Part shown: piece after piece, positions 20,687 through 52,600 of the stretch | How positions within the stretch are numbered: the first letter of the stretch is position 1 | Layout of the letters: every line of letters starts with the position of its first letter | From: an uncultured Thermoleophilia bacterium | GTDB lineage: Bacteria; Actinomycetota; Thermoleophilia; Miltoncostaeales; Miltoncostaeaceae | Length of the DNA stretch: 56,866 nt | Direction: 5' to 3' | Assembly: GCA_938017905.1 (NCBI GenBank) | Contig: CALIKX010000013.1 | Location: 1 to 56,866 of the forward strand | Position numbers and translations under genes: made by a program | Notes under the pieces: model-generated | Databases searched by the model: none | The model's input: only the letters and a program-made list of their open reading frames with translations | What the model was told of the DNA's origin: nothing

Positions 20687-21472
20687 TCACGCGCCGCGGA
20701 AGTCGGGGTCCCGCTTCTCGCGGAAGGCCCCGAGGCCCTCGGCGATGTCGTCGCTGGCGAACGCCCGGTCACGCCACTCGTCGGCAACCGCCTCCGCCCG
20801 CGCAGGATCGGGGTCATCCTCGATCGCCCGGATGATGGACCGCATGCCGGCCACGGCAATGGGGCCATTGGCGGCAATCGCCCGGGCATCGGCCATCGCG
20901 AGCGCACGCAGTTCCAGGCGGTCCACCACCCGGTTCACAAGGCCGATGCGGCGTGCGGCCTCGGCATCAATGGGTCGGCCGGTCAGGAACAGCTCCCGGG
21001 TGGCCGGGGCACCGATCACCCGCACGAACCGCCGGATGCCCGGTGCCGCATAGACCCACCCCAGGCGTGCCGGGGGCATGCCGAGCCGGGCCCCGCGGGT
21101 GGCGAGCCGCCAGTCCGCAGCCATGGCGATCTCCAGCGCCCCGCCGAACGCATTGCCGTTGAGCGCCGCGATCACCGGCACGGGGCAGTCCTCCACCGCG
21201 TCGGCGACGCGGCCCAGCAGTCGCTCGCCCGTGCGGACCGCGTCCGTGAGGGCCGCGCCATCACGGGCCTGCAGGTCCACACCGCCGGAGAAGTTGCGGT
21301 CGCCTGCACCGGTCAGCAGCACGGCCCGGGCGCCCTCCAGCGCATCCGCCGACAGTGCCGCGACCAGCGCATCCAGCATCGGGTCGTCCAGGCTGTTGGC
21401 CCGCGACTCGTTCGTGATGGTGACGACGGCCACCCACCCGTCGCGCACGGTGTCGATACGACCCGCGCTCAC
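20687..21472 (-). CDS. enoyl-CoA hydratase/isomerase family protein
   Basis: A 261-residue crotonase-fold protein. The CoA-site segments are present: the strand WVAVVTITN, the first oxyanion region RNFSGGVDLQA and the second, IAALNGNAFGGALEIAMAADWRLA. The usual second catalytic Glu region reads GMPPARLGWVYAAPG, so the acid found in true hydratases appears absent, and it may be an isomerase or another crotonase. GTG 21472 overlaps the stop of the upstream hydrolase gene as GTGA, which fixes the start and shows coupling. Confidence 0.87.
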   Translation of the reverse strand: MSAGRIDTVRDGWVAVVTITNESRANSLDDPMLDALVAALSADALEGARAVLLTGAGDRNFSGGVDLQARDGAALTDAVRTGERLLGRVADAVEDCPVPVIAALNGNAFGGALEIAMAADWRLATRGARLGMPPARLGWVYAAPGIRRFVRVIGAPATRELFLTGRPIDAEAARRIGLVNRVVDRLELRALAMADARAIAANGPIAVAGMRSIIRAIEDDPDPARAEAVADEWRDRAFASDDIAEGLGAFREKRDPDFRGA

Positions 21473-22356
21473 CGGGTGCGCGCCAGGTGGTCCCGCATGG
21501 CCGCGGTCACCAGGTCCGGGGCCTCCTGCTGCGCCCAGTGGCTCACGCCCTCCAGCATCACCACCTCGAGGGGGCCCTCCACCTTGGTGATGGAGCGCTC
21601 GAGCAGGAGCGGGGTCATGTAGGCGTCGGCGTCCGCCCACATGATGGTGGTGGGCACCGTCACGGGCGGCAGGTCGGGCGGCGGCTTCAGCCAGTTCCCC
21701 GGGGGGATGTTGGCGCGGTAGTACTCGAGCGCCGCGGTCATGGCCCCCTCACGCATCAGGGCATCGGTGAACACCCGGCGCTCCTCGTCACCGAATGTCC
21801 CCGGTGCAGCGGTGTCGAACACGAAGGCCGAGAGGTTCGCCGCACCGTCCTTCAGCAGCCACTCCTCGGCCACGCCCTCGAACTGGAAGAGCAGCATGTA
21901 CCAGCTCTTCTGCTGCTGCTCGGGCACCTGACGGCACTCCGCGCTGGCGACCGGATGCGGGGCGTTCAGGATCATCAGCGAGCGGACCGTGTCGGGCATC
22001 AGCGCCGACGTGGCCCAGCACAGGCTGCCGCCCCAGTCGTGGCCCGCGAGGTGCGCGTATCCGTGCCCCAGGGCGTTGATGAGCCCCACCACGTCGCCCA
22101 CCAACTGGGGGAAGGCATAGGCATCAGTCCCCGTCGGCCGGTCGCTCTCCCCGTAGCCGCGCAGATCCGGGACGATCGCGCGATAGCCATCCGCGGCGAG
22201 CGCCGCGGCCTGGTGGCGCCATGAGTACCCCATCTCCGGGAACCCGTGCCACATGATCACCGGCTCGCCATCGTCGGGCCCCATGAACTGCACCGACAGC
22301 ACGGCCCCACCGCAGTCGATCCGCTCGCGGCGTGCGCCCGGGATGTCGCCGTTCAC
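21469..22356 (-). CDS. alpha/beta hydrolase, epoxide hydrolase-like
   Basis: A 295-residue hydrolase with the features of soluble epoxide hydrolases and haloalkane dehalogenases: HGFPEMGYSWRHQ supplies the HGxP oxyanion motif, GHDWGGSLCW the Asp nucleophile, WADADAYM the third acid region, and VSHWAQQEAP the base His. YRANIPP with nearby tyrosines fits the cap domain. The exact substrate is open. GTG 22356 overlaps the ligase gene by GTGA, and its stop overlaps the next gene in the same way. Confidence 0.86.
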   Translation of the reverse strand: MNGDIPGARRERIDCGGAVLSVQFMGPDDGEPVIMWHGFPEMGYSWRHQAAALAADGYRAIVPDLRGYGESDRPTGTDAYAFPQLVGDVVGLINALGHGYAHLAGHDWGGSLCWATSALMPDTVRSLMILNAPHPVASAECRQVPEQQQKSWYMLLFQFEGVAEEWLLKDGAANLSAFVFDTAAPGTFGDEERRVFTDALMREGAMTAALEYYRANIPPGNWLKPPPDLPPVTVPTTIMWADADAYMTPLLLERSITKVEGPLEVVMLEGVSHWAQQEAPDLVTAAMRDHLARTR

Positions 22357-46575: not shown

Positions 46576-46833
46576 TCAGGTTCCCGCGGCACGCCCCCCG
46601 CGCGAGCGCTCGGCCTGCCCGATGCGGTCGGCCAGGTCATCGGCCAGCATCGCCCGCGTGCTGGCCCGCTCGGCCTGTATCCGCAGACGGGCGAGTTCCA
46701 TGCGGGCGTCGTCGTCAAGCCCCTCGCGGCGGTCCAGCGCCTCCAGCCGGGCGATGTCCGCGGCGATCCCGCGAACGCGCTCCCATCGGCGATCGGCCAC
46801 CTCGTCCGCGCCGCCGGCGGAGGGCACGCTCAT
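46576..46833 (-). CDS. small charged helical protein
   Basis: An 85-residue protein not recognised by family. Residues 15-75 are one long charged helix with heptad-like spacing (RRWERVRGIAADIARLEALDRREGLDDDARMELARLRIQAERA), suggesting a coiled coil. It starts at ATG 46833, overlapping the helicase stop by ATGA, so it is probably made with the helicase and may bind it. No membrane segment. Confidence 0.7.
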   Translation of the reverse strand: MSVPSAGGADEVADRRWERVRGIAADIARLEALDRREGLDDDARMELARLRIQAERASTRAMLADDLADRIGQAERSRGGRAAGT

Positions 46834-49316
46834 TCCCCTGCGGATTCCGTGCCCGGGGCGCCGCCACCGGATGCAGTGCCGGTGGAGGAGCCGCCCGACC
46901 GCCTGCGCCGGCGCCGGCGGCGCCGACGGGACGCCGTGCCCTGCGCCGGGGAATCGCCCCCGGACCCATCGCCCTCCGCGGTCGGCGTGGGCGTCGAACC
47001 GGTGTCCGCGACCTCCGCGGTGGACATCTTCCGGCGCCGGCGCCGGCGCTTGCGCGGGGATCCCCCATCGCCCGAGGCCGAACGGCCCACGCCCACGTCC
47101 TCGGCGGATGGAAGGCGCGGGGCCTTGCCCTGCAGCTGGTTCCACGCGCGCGCGCTCTGCAGGGCGCGCGGGCTGCGGGTGCCCACCGCGGCGCGGAGCG
47201 CGCGGCGCGCGTCGGGGGCCGTCCAGTCGATGGCGTCGAGGGCACCGCGCAGGGCGGCCCACCCGCCGCATGCACCCGCGGCACGGCTGGCCACGCGGAT
47301 GTCCTCGCTCTTCAGGGGTACATCCCCCGGGCCCAGGGCGAGCACCACGCGTCCGGCCTGTCCCACGCGCAGGGGCGAGCCGCCCTCGGGCGGGGCGATG
47401 GCATCGGGTGCCGGGGCGCCCACGGCACGCAGCCACGTGCCGATCAGGCCCACCTCGCCGCCGTTCTCGATGAGGTGCTGCGACTCCCACTTGGCGATGC
47501 GGTGGATTTCCTGGTTGCGGCCCGGGCGGCTGGCGTCGGCGAGGCCGCGCGACACCTCCCACGCCCACGCGGGTGCCCACGACGATGCGCTGTCCAGCGC
47601 CGACCACCGGCGGCGGCGCTCGGCAGAGCGCCCCTGCTGCTCGAGCGACGCCACGTTCTCCCACTTGCCGGCCTCATCCGCGTGGAACCACAGTGCCCGG
47701 ATGCGCTCCCGGGCGGTCATGCGCAGGCGGTCGAGGATCGCCCGCGGCGCATCGGCCGGAAGCGCCTGGCGCAGCTCGGGCTGCACCAGCAGCGCCAGCG
47801 CCCATGCCCGCCACATGGGCTGCTCATCGCCGTTCTCGGCCTTGCGCGCCACCACGCCCGAGAGCGCCCACCACGCATGCGCCCCCAGGGGATCGATGCC
47901 CTCGGCCAGTCGCTCGGCCACATCGCCCCACTCACTGTCGCGCCCTGCAGCCTCAACCCACTCCTCCATGACGCTCACGGGGATCTCGGCCGGGTCGGCC
48001 TCGCGCCACCCCCCGTCGCGGAAGCCCGCGACGAGCGCCGACGGCGAGGCGCTGGGGTTGACCAGGCTGGCGCGGCCACCGTCCTGCTGGGCCAGGATCT
48101 CGGCCGCGCGCGCCAGCTTGCCGCGCTCGCCGCCCTCCGGCGGACCGGCCACCCGGCCCAGTGGCTTGTACCACCCCATGCCGAACAGGTCGTGGCTGGT
48201 CTGCACGCCCATGGGATCGCCGGCCGGCAGGAACTCCACCGACACGGCCTCCTTGCCCGGGGCCGGGCGCATCACGCGTCCCAGGCGCTGCACGAACACG
48301 CGCTCGCTGGTGGTGGGGGCCAGGTGCATCACCACGGACGCCCGGGTCTCGTCCCACCCCTCGGTGAGGAGGTCGGCATTGCACAGCACGTCGATCTTCC
48401 CCGCCCCGAAGTCGGCGAGGATGCGCTGCAGGTCACGGGCCGCGGTCTGCCCCGACACGGCCGCAGCCCTCACACCGCGCTCGGTCATCTCGTCGGCCAG
48501 GGCGTGGGCCTGCGCCACGGTGGCCGTGTAGGCCACGCCCGCCAGATCCATCGGCATGAAGTGCTCGGCCCACACCTCGGCGCATGCCCGGTGCCACAGA
48601 GCCCGGTCCAGCGCGCGACCCAGGCTGGCCTGGTCGAAGTCACCGCGCACGCGCGTGACGTCGGAAAGGTCCACGGACCGCTCCACGCGCAGCGACCGGA
48701 GCGGACACAGGATGCCGCGGTCAATGGCCGACTGGCGGTCCAGCGTGGCCGCCACCGGTCCGAATACCTGCTCCACGTGACCGGTTGTGGTGGCGGGCGT
48801 GGCCGTGAACCCCACCACCACCGCGTCGGCGGCGCGGTCGATCATTCGCCGGGTCTGGGCCCCCAGCGTGGTGTGGGCCTCGTCGCATACCAGCAGCGAC
48901 ACGGACTCCCAGTCGGCGTCCTCCTGGTTGCGCAGCGCCGCCTGATAGGTGCAGATGGCCACGCCCGGGCGCCCGATGCCGGACACCCCGTCGGCCACGT
49001 AGTGCACATCCCGGAAGAACGTGGACAGGGCCTGCGCGGTCTGCTCGGCCAGGTTGCGGCGGGGCACGAGGATGACAGCCGAGCCGTCGAGCGCCGCGGC
49101 CAATGCGCAGAAGGTGATGGTCTTCCCGGACCCGGTGGGGGCATCCACCCACGTACGTGAGGCCCCGGACCGGAGGCGGATGGCGAGTTCATCGAGGGCC
49201 TCGATCTGATGCTCGCGCAGCACCACGTTGGGCCACCAGGCGGCCGGATCAGCCAGGGCGGCCTCCAGGCGCTCGGCGGGCGCCTGCGCCTCGGTGGTCT
49301 CTGTGTGCGTGCTCAT
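46830..49316 (-). CDS. SF2 DEAD/DEAH-type helicase with Arg-rich tail
   Basis: An 828-residue protein. The N-terminal half is an SF2 helicase: LREHQIEALDEL, Walker A APTGSGKT near residue 65, LVCDEAHTTLG (motif II, DEAH), TATPAT (motif III), and VFVQRLGRVMRP (motif VI with Arg fingers). This resembles the RecG/UvrB-like or type III restriction-type group; no nuclease motif is visible. The C-terminal half is helical and unassigned. The last 80 residues contain two arginine runs (RKRRRRRRK and a ten-Arg run) among Gly/Ser/Thr, likely nucleic-acid-binding and disordered. ATG 49316 is used; GTG 49328 is possible. Confidence 0.85.
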   Translation of the reverse strand: MSTHTETTEAQAPAERLEAALADPAAWWPNVVLREHQIEALDELAIRLRSGASRTWVDAPTGSGKTITFCALAAALDGSAVILVPRRNLAEQTAQALSTFFRDVHYVADGVSGIGRPGVAICTYQAALRNQEDADWESVSLLVCDEAHTTLGAQTRRMIDRAADAVVVGFTATPATTTGHVEQVFGPVAATLDRQSAIDRGILCPLRSLRVERSVDLSDVTRVRGDFDQASLGRALDRALWHRACAEVWAEHFMPMDLAGVAYTATVAQAHALADEMTERGVRAAAVSGQTAARDLQRILADFGAGKIDVLCNADLLTEGWDETRASVVMHLAPTTSERVFVQRLGRVMRPAPGKEAVSVEFLPAGDPMGVQTSHDLFGMGWYKPLGRVAGPPEGGERGKLARAAEILAQQDGGRASLVNPSASPSALVAGFRDGGWREADPAEIPVSVMEEWVEAAGRDSEWGDVAERLAEGIDPLGAHAWWALSGVVARKAENGDEQPMWRAWALALLVQPELRQALPADAPRAILDRLRMTARERIRALWFHADEAGKWENVASLEQQGRSAERRRRWSALDSASSWAPAWAWEVSRGLADASRPGRNQEIHRIAKWESQHLIENGGEVGLIGTWLRAVGAPAPDAIAPPEGGSPLRVGQAGRVVLALGPGDVPLKSEDIRVASRAAGACGGWAALRGALDAIDWTAPDARRALRAAVGTRSPRALQSARAWNQLQGKAPRLPSAEDVGVGRSASGDGGSPRKRRRRRRKMSTAEVADTGSTPTPTAEGDGSGGDSPAQGTASRRRRRRRRRRSGGSSTGTASGGGAPGTESAGE

Positions 49317-49522
49317 GCCATCTCGCACCTCTCAGCGCATGGCGCAACCCATGCACGGCAGGCCCCTGCGGGGGCGATGCGGACTCGGGGGATCACGAGG
49401 CGGTCGGCATGGCGCTCTGTCGAGGCGCCGGACGGCCCATGAACCGCGCGGAACCATAGCACCAGCACGCGGAGGCAGTCATTCCGCGGGCCCCAATGCG
49501 GCAGGACGCCGATGCCGATCGC
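49317..49522. other. intergenic region between helicase and LytR_C genes
   Basis: About 200 nt between divergent genes. I see no convincing helicase promoter, RNA gene or repeat; short open frames here lack support. Confidence 0.4.
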
Positions 49523-49528
49523 TACAGT
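49523..49528 (+). promoter_or_regulatory. candidate -10 box of the LytR_C-fusion operon
   Basis: TACAGT ends 8 nt before ATG 49536, with no Shine-Dalgarno sequence. Confidence 0.55.
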
Positions 49529-49535
49529 GCCCTGC

Positions 49536-50114
49536 ATGGGTACCGGATCCTCGGGCGGCGGCGCCAATCAGTGGGCACGTCCCGTACTGCTCGCCGTGTC
49601 GTGCATCGTCATCGGCTTCGTCATCGGATGGTTCGCCAGGGGTGACGGCGGGGGCGTGGTGCTGCCCACCGTCGCGGACGCCGTGGAGACCACCGCGACG
49701 GTGGCGAGCGTGGACACCACCGGCACCTCGACCACCTTCGACACCACCGGCACCACGGCGACCACGGGCACGACCGGCACGACCGGCACGACCGGCAGCA
49801 CGGTCACGGGGGCCCCGGCGCGCAACCAGATCAACCTGGTGATCCTCAACGGAACCGAGACCGCCGGCCTGGCGGGCAAGACCCAGACCCAGGCCGAGTC
49901 CATCGGCTACACCACTGTGGGCATCGGTGACGCACCCGAGACGCAGGCAACCACCGTTGCCTACTACCGCACGGGTGAGCAGGCCGCCGCACAGCAGGTG
50001 GCCGCCGACCTCGGCGCGCAGACCGAGGAGGCCCTCACCGACGGCAGCCCGATCGAGTCGGCCGCCGTCACGGTGCAGCCGGACGTCGACGTGGTGCTCG
50101 TGCTCGGGGGATGA
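49536..50114 (+). CDS. membrane-anchored LytR_C domain protein
   Basis: A 192-residue protein with one membrane helix near residues 16-35, a Thr/Gly linker (about 50-90, encoded by tandem ACGACCGGC units), and a C-terminal LytR_C domain: INLVILNGTETAGLAGKTQTQAESIGY and VDVVLVLGG are typical. These domains occur on LytR-CpsA-Psr wall ligases and on stand-alone anchored proteins; no catalytic LCP domain is present here. ATG 49536 is set by the -10 box, not the earlier ATG 49512. The stop overlaps the fusion gene by ATGA. Confidence 0.83.
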   Translation: MGTGSSGGGANQWARPVLLAVSCIVIGFVIGWFARGDGGGVVLPTVADAVETTATVASVDTTGTSTTFDTTGTTATTGTTGTTGTTGSTVTGAPARNQINLVILNGTETAGLAGKTQTQAESIGYTTVGIGDAPETQATTVAYYRTGEQAAAQQVAADLGAQTEEALTDGSPIESAAVTVQPDVDVVLVLGG

Positions 50115-52600
50115 GCCTCGTCGCGGGGCCCGGCCTGAGGGTCGGCCTCCGCCTGCCGCAGTACGCGTCGTCATGGCCTGACCTGCGTGATGCCGCCATC
50201 CGGGCGGAATCACTGGGATTCGACTCCGCGTGGCTGAACGACCACCTGTGGACGCCCGGGCGGCTGCACGGCGATGACGCCGTCGATGCCTTCACTGGGC
50301 TGGCGGCGGTGGCCGCGGTCACCGACCGCATCACGCTGGGCACTGCCGTGCTGTCGGCCTCGTACCGCCCCGCGCCCCTGGCGGCGAAGATGGCCTCGGT
50401 GCTGGACGTCATCAGCGGCGGACGGCTGGTGCTGGGCATCGGGACCGGATCCGACGCCGCCGAGCACCGCGCCTATGGATACCCCTTTCCGCCCGCCCGC
50501 GCGCGCACCGCCGGCCTGGTGCAGGCCCTCGACGTGCTGGAGGCCATGTGGAGATCACCCGATGGCGCCTCGATCGCGGGATCGATCGACGAGGCCCCGT
50601 GCAATCCGCCGCCCATCACCCTCCCCCGGCCGCCGGTACTGGTGGCCGCCCACCGGCCGGGCCTGCTGCGGATGGCAGGGGCACGGGCCGACGGGCTGTT
50701 CGCCGCATTCCTGACGCCGGAGGACCTGCGGGAGCGGGTCGCCATCGCCCGCAATGCGCGGCTCGAGGCCGGCGGATCCGATGACCTGCGCGTGGCCGTG
50801 TACCTGTACGCGCTGCCCATGCGCGACGAGGACGAGGCCCTCGGCTGGATCGCCCCCGAGGCGCGCGCACTCGGGTCGTCACCGCGGTCGCTGCTGAAGT
50901 GGCTCGGCACCCGGGGCCTTGTGGCACCGCCCGCGGCAATCGCGGCCGCGCTCGCGCGCTACGCCGACGCCGGGGCCACCGACGCCGTGCTGGTGTTGCC
51001 CAACCGCGTGCCCCCGGAGGCTGTCGACGCCCTGGCCGAGGTGCGCACCGTGAGCCCCGACGAGGGCGGCGCAGAGCACCCCGCCCCGAGCGGCGACGCG
51101 CGACGGGTGGCATCCGCGCGCCACAACCTGGTGGACCTGCTGGTGGAGCAGCACCGTCGCGCGGGGCGCGGCGGGGACCCCGCGGTCAGCGACCACGACG
51201 GCACCTGGGACTACGACGCGCTGTCACTCGCCATGCGGAGGGCGGCGGCCGCGCTCCGGGCAGCCGGACTGCGCGCGGGGCAGCACGTGGCCGTGGTCAT
51301 GCGCGACGGACGCCCCTGGGTGCAGGCCGTGCTTGGCGTGGCCGCGGCGGGGGGCGTGGCGATACCCCTTGACCCCGACACCGACCCCGGGGCACTGGAG
51401 GACGTGCTGGGCGACGCCGCGGTGGCGATGGTGCTGGCCGACCATACGGTGCCCGGCGGTTCATGGCGGGTGGTCGGCAGCGACGTGCTGAACGCAGGGC
51501 GGGCCGCGGGTATCGCGCCGGTGCACCCGGAGGACCTCGCTTACATCATCTACTCGTCGGGATCCACGGGGCGGCCGAAGGGCGCCATGCACGCGCATCG
51601 CGACATGCGGACCTCCGTGGAGGGCTACGCCGACCAGGTGCTGGGCCTCGCCCCCGGCGATACCTGCCATGCGGTGTCGCGCGGCTTCACCTCGCTGGGA
51701 TTCGGCAATGGGTTCTTCCGGCCCCTCGGGCGCGGAGCACATGTGGTGCACCTGCCCACCCGCCCGACCGTGCGCACCGTCACCCGCGCGTGCGCCGCGC
51801 ATGGGGTGACGGTGCTCTCCGGCGTACCCACGTTCTGGTCGCAGCTGGCCGCCTTCCTCGACCGCCACCCCGGCGAGCGCGCCACGCTGCGGGGCCTGCG
51901 ACTGGGGGTGTCGTCGGGTGACTCCCTGCCCGGGCCGGTGCTGGAGCGGCTGGCCGAGGTGCTGCCCGACCTCGACGTTCTGGAGGGGTTCGGGTGCTCC
52001 GAGGCGTCCAACATCGTGCTGTCCACGCGGGAGGGCGAGCACCTGCCCGGGTGCCTGGGTCACCCCGTTCCGGGCGCCGAGGTGTCGCTGCGCGATGAGG
52101 ACGGTGCGCCGGTGGCGCCCGGAACGCCCGGGCGCCTGTGGATCCGGTCCGAGAGCAACACGTCCGGGTACTGGCGGCGCGCCAACCTGACCCGCGACCT
52201 GCTGCACGGCGAGTGGGTGCGCATGGGCGACATGCTGGTGGAGGACGACGGGGTATACCGGCACGTAGGGCGCGCGGACGACCTGTTCAAGGTGGATGCC
52301 ATGTTCGTGAGCCCCGTGCAGGTGGAGGCCGTGGTGCTGGAGCACCCCGCCGTGGCCGAGGCCGCCGTGGTGGGGCGTGCCGACACGCGGGGCCTGATGC
52401 GCGCCGTGGCGGTGGTGGTGGCATGCGACGGCGCGGATCGCGAGGGCGCGGACGATCAGATCCGGCGCTCGGTGGCCCATGCGCTGGGTCCGCACTGCGC
52501 GCCCGCGGAGATCGAGTGGCGCGACGGGTTGCCCCGGCTGCCGTCGGGCAAGGTCGCACGCCGCGCCCTGCGCGACGGTACGGGCCCTTCAGACTCCTAG
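50111..52600 (+). CDS. fusion of LLM-class F420-type oxidoreductase and aryl-CoA ligase
   Basis: An 829-residue single frame with two enzymes. Residues 1-315 are a luciferase-like TIM barrel: VGLRLPQYASSWPDLRDAAIRAESLGFDS, the ISGGRLVLGIGTG segment and EHRAYGYPF are typical of F420-dependent oxidoreductases. Residues about 335-829 are an ANL adenylating enzyme near benzoate-CoA ligases: YIIYSSGSTGRPKG (478-491), SLGFGNGFFRPLGRGA, GVPTFWSQL, GCSEASN, GDMLVEDDGVYRHVGRADDLFKV and PSGKV with the catalytic Lys at 814. There is no carrier domain. A linker near 313-335 joins them. The pair could activate an aromatic acid and reduce or oxidise it; this is inference. Confidence 0.9.
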   Translation: MSLVAGPGLRVGLRLPQYASSWPDLRDAAIRAESLGFDSAWLNDHLWTPGRLHGDDAVDAFTGLAAVAAVTDRITLGTAVLSASYRPAPLAAKMASVLDVISGGRLVLGIGTGSDAAEHRAYGYPFPPARARTAGLVQALDVLEAMWRSPDGASIAGSIDEAPCNPPPITLPRPPVLVAAHRPGLLRMAGARADGLFAAFLTPEDLRERVAIARNARLEAGGSDDLRVAVYLYALPMRDEDEALGWIAPEARALGSSPRSLLKWLGTRGLVAPPAAIAAALARYADAGATDAVLVLPNRVPPEAVDALAEVRTVSPDEGGAEHPAPSGDARRVASARHNLVDLLVEQHRRAGRGGDPAVSDHDGTWDYDALSLAMRRAAAALRAAGLRAGQHVAVVMRDGRPWVQAVLGVAAAGGVAIPLDPDTDPGALEDVLGDAAVAMVLADHTVPGGSWRVVGSDVLNAGRAAGIAPVHPEDLAYIIYSSGSTGRPKGAMHAHRDMRTSVEGYADQVLGLAPGDTCHAVSRGFTSLGFGNGFFRPLGRGAHVVHLPTRPTVRTVTRACAAHGVTVLSGVPTFWSQLAAFLDRHPGERATLRGLRLGVSSGDSLPGPVLERLAEVLPDLDVLEGFGCSEASNIVLSTREGEHLPGCLGHPVPGAEVSLRDEDGAPVAPGTPGRLWIRSESNTSGYWRRANLTRDLLHGEWVRMGDMLVEDDGVYRHVGRADDLFKVDAMFVSPVQVEAVVLEHPAVAEAAVVGRADTRGLMRAVAVVVACDGADREGADDQIRRSVAHALGPHCAPAEIEWRDGLPRLPSGKVARRALRDGTGPSDS

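Follow-up and report, generated by a model that had tools for sequence, protein, structure and literature searches.

Toward the end of the DNA stretch analyzed here (56,866 nucleotides, hereafter the window), a single open frame appears to join an oxidoreductase to an acid-activating ligase, which raises the question of whether the fusion is real and, if so, what its two halves accomplish together. The window comes from a draft genome whose 89 contigs total 1.54 Mb, with a completeness of 95%. The organism belongs to the Miltoncostaeales, an order that NCBI taxonomy places in the class Thermoleophilia of the Actinomycetota. The gene runs from ATG to stop at positions 50111 to 52600 on the forward strand and encodes 829 amino acids. 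Residues 1 to 312 (50111 to 51046, forward strand) form a luciferase-like (LLM) TIM barrel, as indicated by Pfam family PF00296, an AlphaFold model, and Foldseek comparison; the Pfam Bac_luciferase match covered residues 19 to 247 (E value of 7e-40; 137.7 bits against a cutoff of 27.9). Residues 337 to 829 (51119 to 52597, forward strand) constitute an AMP-forming ligase, identified by Pfam, motif residues, and nearest structures, with matches to AMP-binding at residues 349 to 688 (E value of 3e-67) and to AMP-binding_C at residues 737 to 814 (E value of 1e-14), both well over cutoff. The segment between them, residues 313 to 336 (51047 to 51118, forward strand), is a flexible linker of about 25 residues that stood out by its variable length, its relaxed codon positions, and pLDDT values of about 23 to 40 at residues 311 to 330 of the full-length model. 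The Pfam search of the 829-residue protein gave no match to a PP-binding carrier domain. The original prediction of an uninterrupted frame combining an LLM barrel with a complete ligase, with intact A3 and A10 motifs and no carrier domain, was thus borne out by the reading frame, the Pfam matches, and the motif residues.

A fusion seen in one draft assembly might be created by an assembly or sequencing error at the junction. Apart from the fragmented state of the source genome, we found no sign that supports such an artifact, and conservation refutes it so clearly that we give it practically no weight. Among 42 genomes of Miltoncostaeales, which are the basis of all genome counts below, 30 encode the full-length fusion in a single frame at 91 to 52% identity, and another five (G001, G010, G028, G031, and G034) carry copies that are cut by a contig end yet still cross the junction. 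The junction is therefore read through in frame in 35 of the 42, and the original claim of a real fusion free of a junction indel stands. In one further genome (G014) a contig end falls near the junction, three (G024, G026, and G035) encode the halves as separate genes, and neither half of the family was found in the remaining three: G020, which is 99% complete, and the drafts G032 (80%) and G039 (86%). The linkers of the relatives differ greatly in length, and all are in frame. Split genes were at first suspected from stops inside the matches of 8 of 51 remapped loci, but every one of these stops fell at query residue 825, where the protein normally ends, so those loci are not split at the junction; no stop at the junction occurred in any of the 51. 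In a comparison with a relative of 91% identity, the LLM half showed 12, 11, and 73 substitutions at codon positions 1, 2, and 3 and the ligase half 24, 25, and 112, and constraint on codon position was relaxed in the linker. The excess at third positions indicates purifying selection on both halves in the fusion frame. The two halves are genuinely fused, in a form that the order has conserved. A draft genome with 7% contamination (G029) carries two full-length copies, on contigs C111 and C71 (L066 and L067), and the copy on C71 lacks the flanking LytR_C and helicase genes described below.

The original prediction had also tentatively regarded a direct LLM-ligase fusion as new. Searches with the query P0001 in two partly overlapping samples, 399 genomes from the class and 396 from the phylum, found no fused copy outside the Miltoncostaeales, and a literature search covering part of the literature found no report of one; the claim held within the scope of these samples. 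A scan for peptide patterns, which covered 84,980 species genomes and was sensitive to close relatives only, gave 21 loci, each of which reads as a member of the fusion family. Among named records, the closest copies came mostly from assembled genomes (MAGs) of Miltoncostaeales, Thermoleophilia, or Actinomycetota, and no place in a plasmid collection matched 80% of the fusion protein. Some record titles deserve caution. Loci L041, L051, and L056 (CAMCDF and CAMAVU), titled as a Bifidobacterium breve MAG, carry genes about 73 to 76% identical to the fusion in the window, and L041 also has the gene order of the window. The Bifidobacterium breve label looks wrong; so does the label of L040, titled Acidobacteria, which carries a relative of the fusion. 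Genome G170 was considered as a second lineage with the LLM-ligase pair and was rejected, its LLM protein being only 29% identical and outside the family clade. The fusion is, then, a trait shared across an order that has hardly been studied, and it was seen nowhere else in the samples searched.

The original prediction named separately encoded halves in related genomes as evidence against a real fusion. Such a case exists in three genomes, where it is a minority form nested among fusions, and for that reason it does not refute the fusion. In G026 and G035, which belong to the same genus, an LLM gene of 298 to 301 amino acids is followed directly by a ligase gene of 491 to 496 amino acids, and in G035 the LLM stop and the ligase start overlap as ATGA. 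This pair sits apart from the helicase-LytR_C locus, which is kept separately in both genomes. In G024, a stand-alone LLM gene follows LytR_C, and the ligase gene lies beyond the helicase gene. The separate forms were placed among the fusions in trees of the LLM half as well as of the ligase half, which favors an early fusion with later splitting over an origin from ancestrally separate genes. A constraint uniting the fusions in one clade was not rejected by the AU test (P values of 0.09 for the LLM half and 0.29 for the ligase half), so the trees suggest this direction while the opposite one stays compatible with them. These natural separate forms allow a comparison of fused and unfused enzymes.

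The LLM half alone was modeled with confidence as a TIM barrel (pLDDT of 88.6, pTM of 0.88), and Foldseek matched it to LLM enzymes with E values of 1e-16 to 1e-20. The gathering score and the fold together place it in PF00296. Its residues N43-D44-H45 are invariant and align with S38-D39-H40 of FGD1 in a HMMER alignment to structure 3b4y. Its redox cofactor bears on an alternative close to the original prediction, in which the ligase would convert an aromatic acid to its aryl-CoA ester for the LLM half to reduce or oxidize with F420. The NCBIfam models that score best with the LLM half are indeed F420-named, and the genome of the window contains CofD, CofE, and CofH, all in one cluster on contig C6. 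However, the half fell below the cutoff of every F420 or LLM family model among those listed, the best being TIGR03560 (130.6 against 231.4 bits), and among the nearest solved structures FMN and F420 enzymes were ranked together. When F420 synthesis was judged by profile matches above cutoff to CofD, CofE, and CofH, six genomes that bear the fusion (G022, G023, G028, G030, G033, and G037) had none of the three, although all are at least 92% complete and G030 is a single contig at 99% completeness. Matches to CofH of about 300 bits in these six look like paralogues from the menaquinone pathway, and F420-positive genomes have such matches too. G041 carries its F420 genes and its fusion on different contigs, so an uncaptured replicon could account for some of the absences. 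The three genomes with separate forms all have F420 genes, and G020 has them in the absence of the fusion. Not every host of the fusion, then, appears to have the genes to make F420, and the six genomes lacking them argue that the enzyme probably does not require it. The LLM superfamily has both FMN-using and F420-using members (PMC6279831), so FMN appears at least as likely a cofactor. The label "F420-type," drawn from family names, thus failed a genome-wide check for F420 synthesis, and we could not retain it.

The ligase half was examined by residue counts over 35 aligned family members (32 fused and 3 separate). The A3 motif, which reads YSSGSTGRPKG, is intact, and T486 and K490 of the A3 P-loop, E631 (A5), D707 (A7), R721 (A8), and K814 (A10) are invariant in all 35. 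The A3, A5, A7, and A10 residues are thus those of the ANL superfamily, and with the ATP-binding and catalytic residues all kept, the ligase half should adenylate a carboxylic acid. The nature of that acid is a separate matter. Benzoate-CoA ligases are the nearest solved structures, and the corresponding TIGR02262 is the nearest family, which speaks for the aryl-CoA alternative, but the fusion scored 311.5 bits against a cutoff of 375.25 and the ligase half alone 314.4 bits, still below it. The benzoate pocket of BadA consists of Y228, G327, S328, T329, H333, and I334 (PMC7277991), which correspond in the ligase half to L529, G628, C629, S630, N634, and I635. The replacements are family-wide, with L529 in 33 of 35 and C629, S630, and N634 in all 35, whereas relatives outside the family keep the BadA tyrosine in 24 of 25 cases and the histidine in 18 of 25. 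Benzoate is therefore an unlikely substrate on this reading of the pocket, and together with the cofactor evidence above, the pocket makes F420-dependent chemistry on an aryl-CoA an improbable account of the fusion.

The A8 motif, Rx(D/K)x6G, ends in a glycine at the pantetheine tunnel (PMC8388817). The ligase half has R721 and D723, and the glycine position is occupied by A730. As this is a single motif position, membership in the ANL superfamily stands, resting on Pfam and fold. Alanine occupies the position in 33 of the 35 family members (all 32 aligned fusions and one of the three separate forms) and glycine in 2, whereas 22 of the 25 relatives from outside the family have glycine there. 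With the change present in every aligned fusion, CoA is a likely but not certain acceptor. The ligase half may even have ceased to form CoA esters and pass its acyl-AMP to an amine, a separate carrier protein, or another acceptor. We consider this doubtful, given that alanine is small and also occurs in three stand-alone relatives (L068, L082, and L090), all of which adjoin a gene of the 4HBT acyl-CoA thioesterase type. In the ligase tree, fused and separate forms fall in one clade, and the nearest rows are five stand-alone ligases from Miltoncostaeales (L068:2546-4120, L069:16367-17854, L082:8210-9757, L087:8849-10357, and L090:1146-2621). The 4HBT-type gene adjoins the ligase in all four of those examined for it, the fourth being L087, and an SDR gene does so in both of those looked at (L082 and L087). 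The original assignment to the benzoate group of aryl-CoA ligases was accordingly right as to the nearest family, but only half right overall, given the score below cutoff, the replaced BadA pocket, and Ala730 in place of the A8 glycine.

The genes around the fusion offer limited guidance. Directly upstream, a gene for a LytR_C-domain protein (49512 to 50114, forward strand; Pfam PF13399), a neighbor conserved across the order, overlaps the fusion by the four bases ATGA at 50111 to 50114, such that the fusion starts inside the LytR_C stop. Divergent from LytR_C is a gene for an SF2-type helicase of 832 amino acids (46830 to 49328, reverse strand), identified by the Pfam domains ResIII, DEAD, and Helicase_C and by synteny. 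The order helicase, LytR_C, fusion is kept in most of the Miltoncostaeales, and LytR_C was upstream of nearly all fusions among those whose upstream side was examined. From this overlap, the original prediction placed the chemistry near the envelope. The overlap is real and conserved, but the argument is one of neighborhood only, and the protein itself points elsewhere: barrel strand 1 lies at residues 10 to 14 in the AlphaFold model of the LLM half, nearly at the protein start, which leaves no space for a signal or membrane segment. On our best reading the fusion is a putative cytosolic two-domain enzyme. In most other genera, the 3' end of the fusion has close by a gene for an epoxide-hydrolase-like alpha/beta hydrolase, usually in convergent orientation. 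The orthologue in the window (21469 to 22356, reverse strand) is 28 kb from the fusion and 60% identical to a fusion-adjacent hydrolase, and the nearest solved structure is the epoxide hydrolase 5ng7 (E value of 1e-55). The hydrolase is a possible pathway partner. No pathway operon is visible around the fusion, so the fusion itself is the ground for supposing that the two reactions are coupled.

We favor, at a probability of roughly 55%, a cytosolic two-domain enzyme whose halves would catalyze successive steps on one substrate. The N-terminal half would act as a flavin-dependent oxidoreductase or oxygenase using FMNH2, or optionally F420H2, and the C-terminal half would adenylate a carboxylic acid and transfer it to some acceptor, either a thiol (CoA being the probable one) or another group. 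In the order thought likeliest, the LLM half would oxidize an aldehyde or ketone to the acid, which the ligase half would capture as the acyl-AMP and then the acyl-CoA. The directly adjacent separate genes in G035, where they overlap, and in G026 suggest that the halves are functionally linked. We also count for two successive steps the epoxide-hydrolase-like gene and two other LLM-ligase pairings, one in G170 (L077), where a ligase gene lies directly downstream of the different LLM gene, and one in G213 (L083), where an LLM gene, MaoC, and a ligase share one cluster. Against the favored reading we count the missing pathway operon, the halves held apart by another gene in G024, the A8 change from glycine to alanine, with which the ligase may form no CoA thioester, and the full-length model (pLDDT of 73, pTM of 0.49), whose disordered linker leaves the two domains without a fixed orientation to each other.

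It is also conceivable, if unlikely, that two enzymes without a common substrate were joined for the convenience of coexpression. The halves are joined by a long, disordered linker that shows no conservation, and three genomes manage with separate forms; in G024, the helicase gene between the halves indicates that tight channeling is not essential. On the other hand, the fusion has been retained across the Miltoncostaeales, and the genes are still directly adjacent in two of the three separate-form genomes. We continue to prefer successive steps on one substrate. A bolder version, which we regard as a long shot, is an order-specific two-step enzyme: its flavin oxygenase would make an acid other than benzoate, and the fused ligase, with its altered thiolation loop, would capture it directly as an acyl-AMP and deliver it to something other than CoA. 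If true, this would be a new, self-contained class of oxidize-and-activate enzyme. Because the fusion ties the oxidoreductase to the ligase, solving the role of one half would constrain that of the other.

Other benzoate-type ligases with additional domains were met in the course of the searches. One, L079:5330-7753 (reverse strand), from another Thermoleophilia family, is a protein of about 807 amino acids in which Pfam identified an N-terminal alpha/beta hydrolase followed by the ligase. L086:2245-4677 and L092:8022-10448 match L079 in length and ligase clade, the Pfam domains having been determined from L079 only. In L091:8615-11536 (forward strand; 973 amino acids), a benzoate-type AMP-binding domain is followed by a PP-binding carrier domain.

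Among known systems, the benzoate-CoA ligases (TIGR02262; BadA structure 4eat, and 2v7b) are the best match in sequence and fold and have the A3, A5, A7, and A10 motifs in common with the fusion, which differs from them in its score below the family cutoff, in the exchange of BadA Y228, S328, T329, and H333, in the A8 alanine, and in the added N-terminal LLM domain. L079 resembles the fusion in that a benzoate-type ligase is directly preceded by another enzyme in one chain, but the partner is a different one and the ligase of L079 is far from the LLM-fusion family in the tree. With the LLM oxidoreductases (PF00296; the Rv1855c type of TIGR03560, FGD1, and Mer), the LLM half shares the TIM barrel, and its D44-H45 matches the D39-H40 pair of FGD1; it differs in falling below every listed NCBIfam LLM cutoff and in having hosts that include genomes without F420 synthesis genes. 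The LLM domains embedded in nonribosomal peptide synthetases (NRPS; TIGR04020, the MupA/Atu3671 family) share a chain with an adenylating domain, as in the fusion, yet the fusion scored 44.2 bits against a cutoff of 244.45, has no carrier or condensation domain, and sets the LLM half before a ligase of the stand-alone type.

A looser parallel is found in bioluminescent bacteria, where the luciferase LuxAB is an LLM enzyme that works with LuxE, an ATP-dependent acid-activating enzyme. There the proteins are separate, the ligase belongs to another family, and the aldehyde is long chain, so that we draw an analogy and claim no homology of the ligases. By that analogy, successive LLM and ligase steps in the fusion would resemble the logic of luciferase with LuxE. 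Both halves of the fusion come from large, known superfamilies, and what stands out is their direct fusion, which the samples searched showed in the Miltoncostaeales only.
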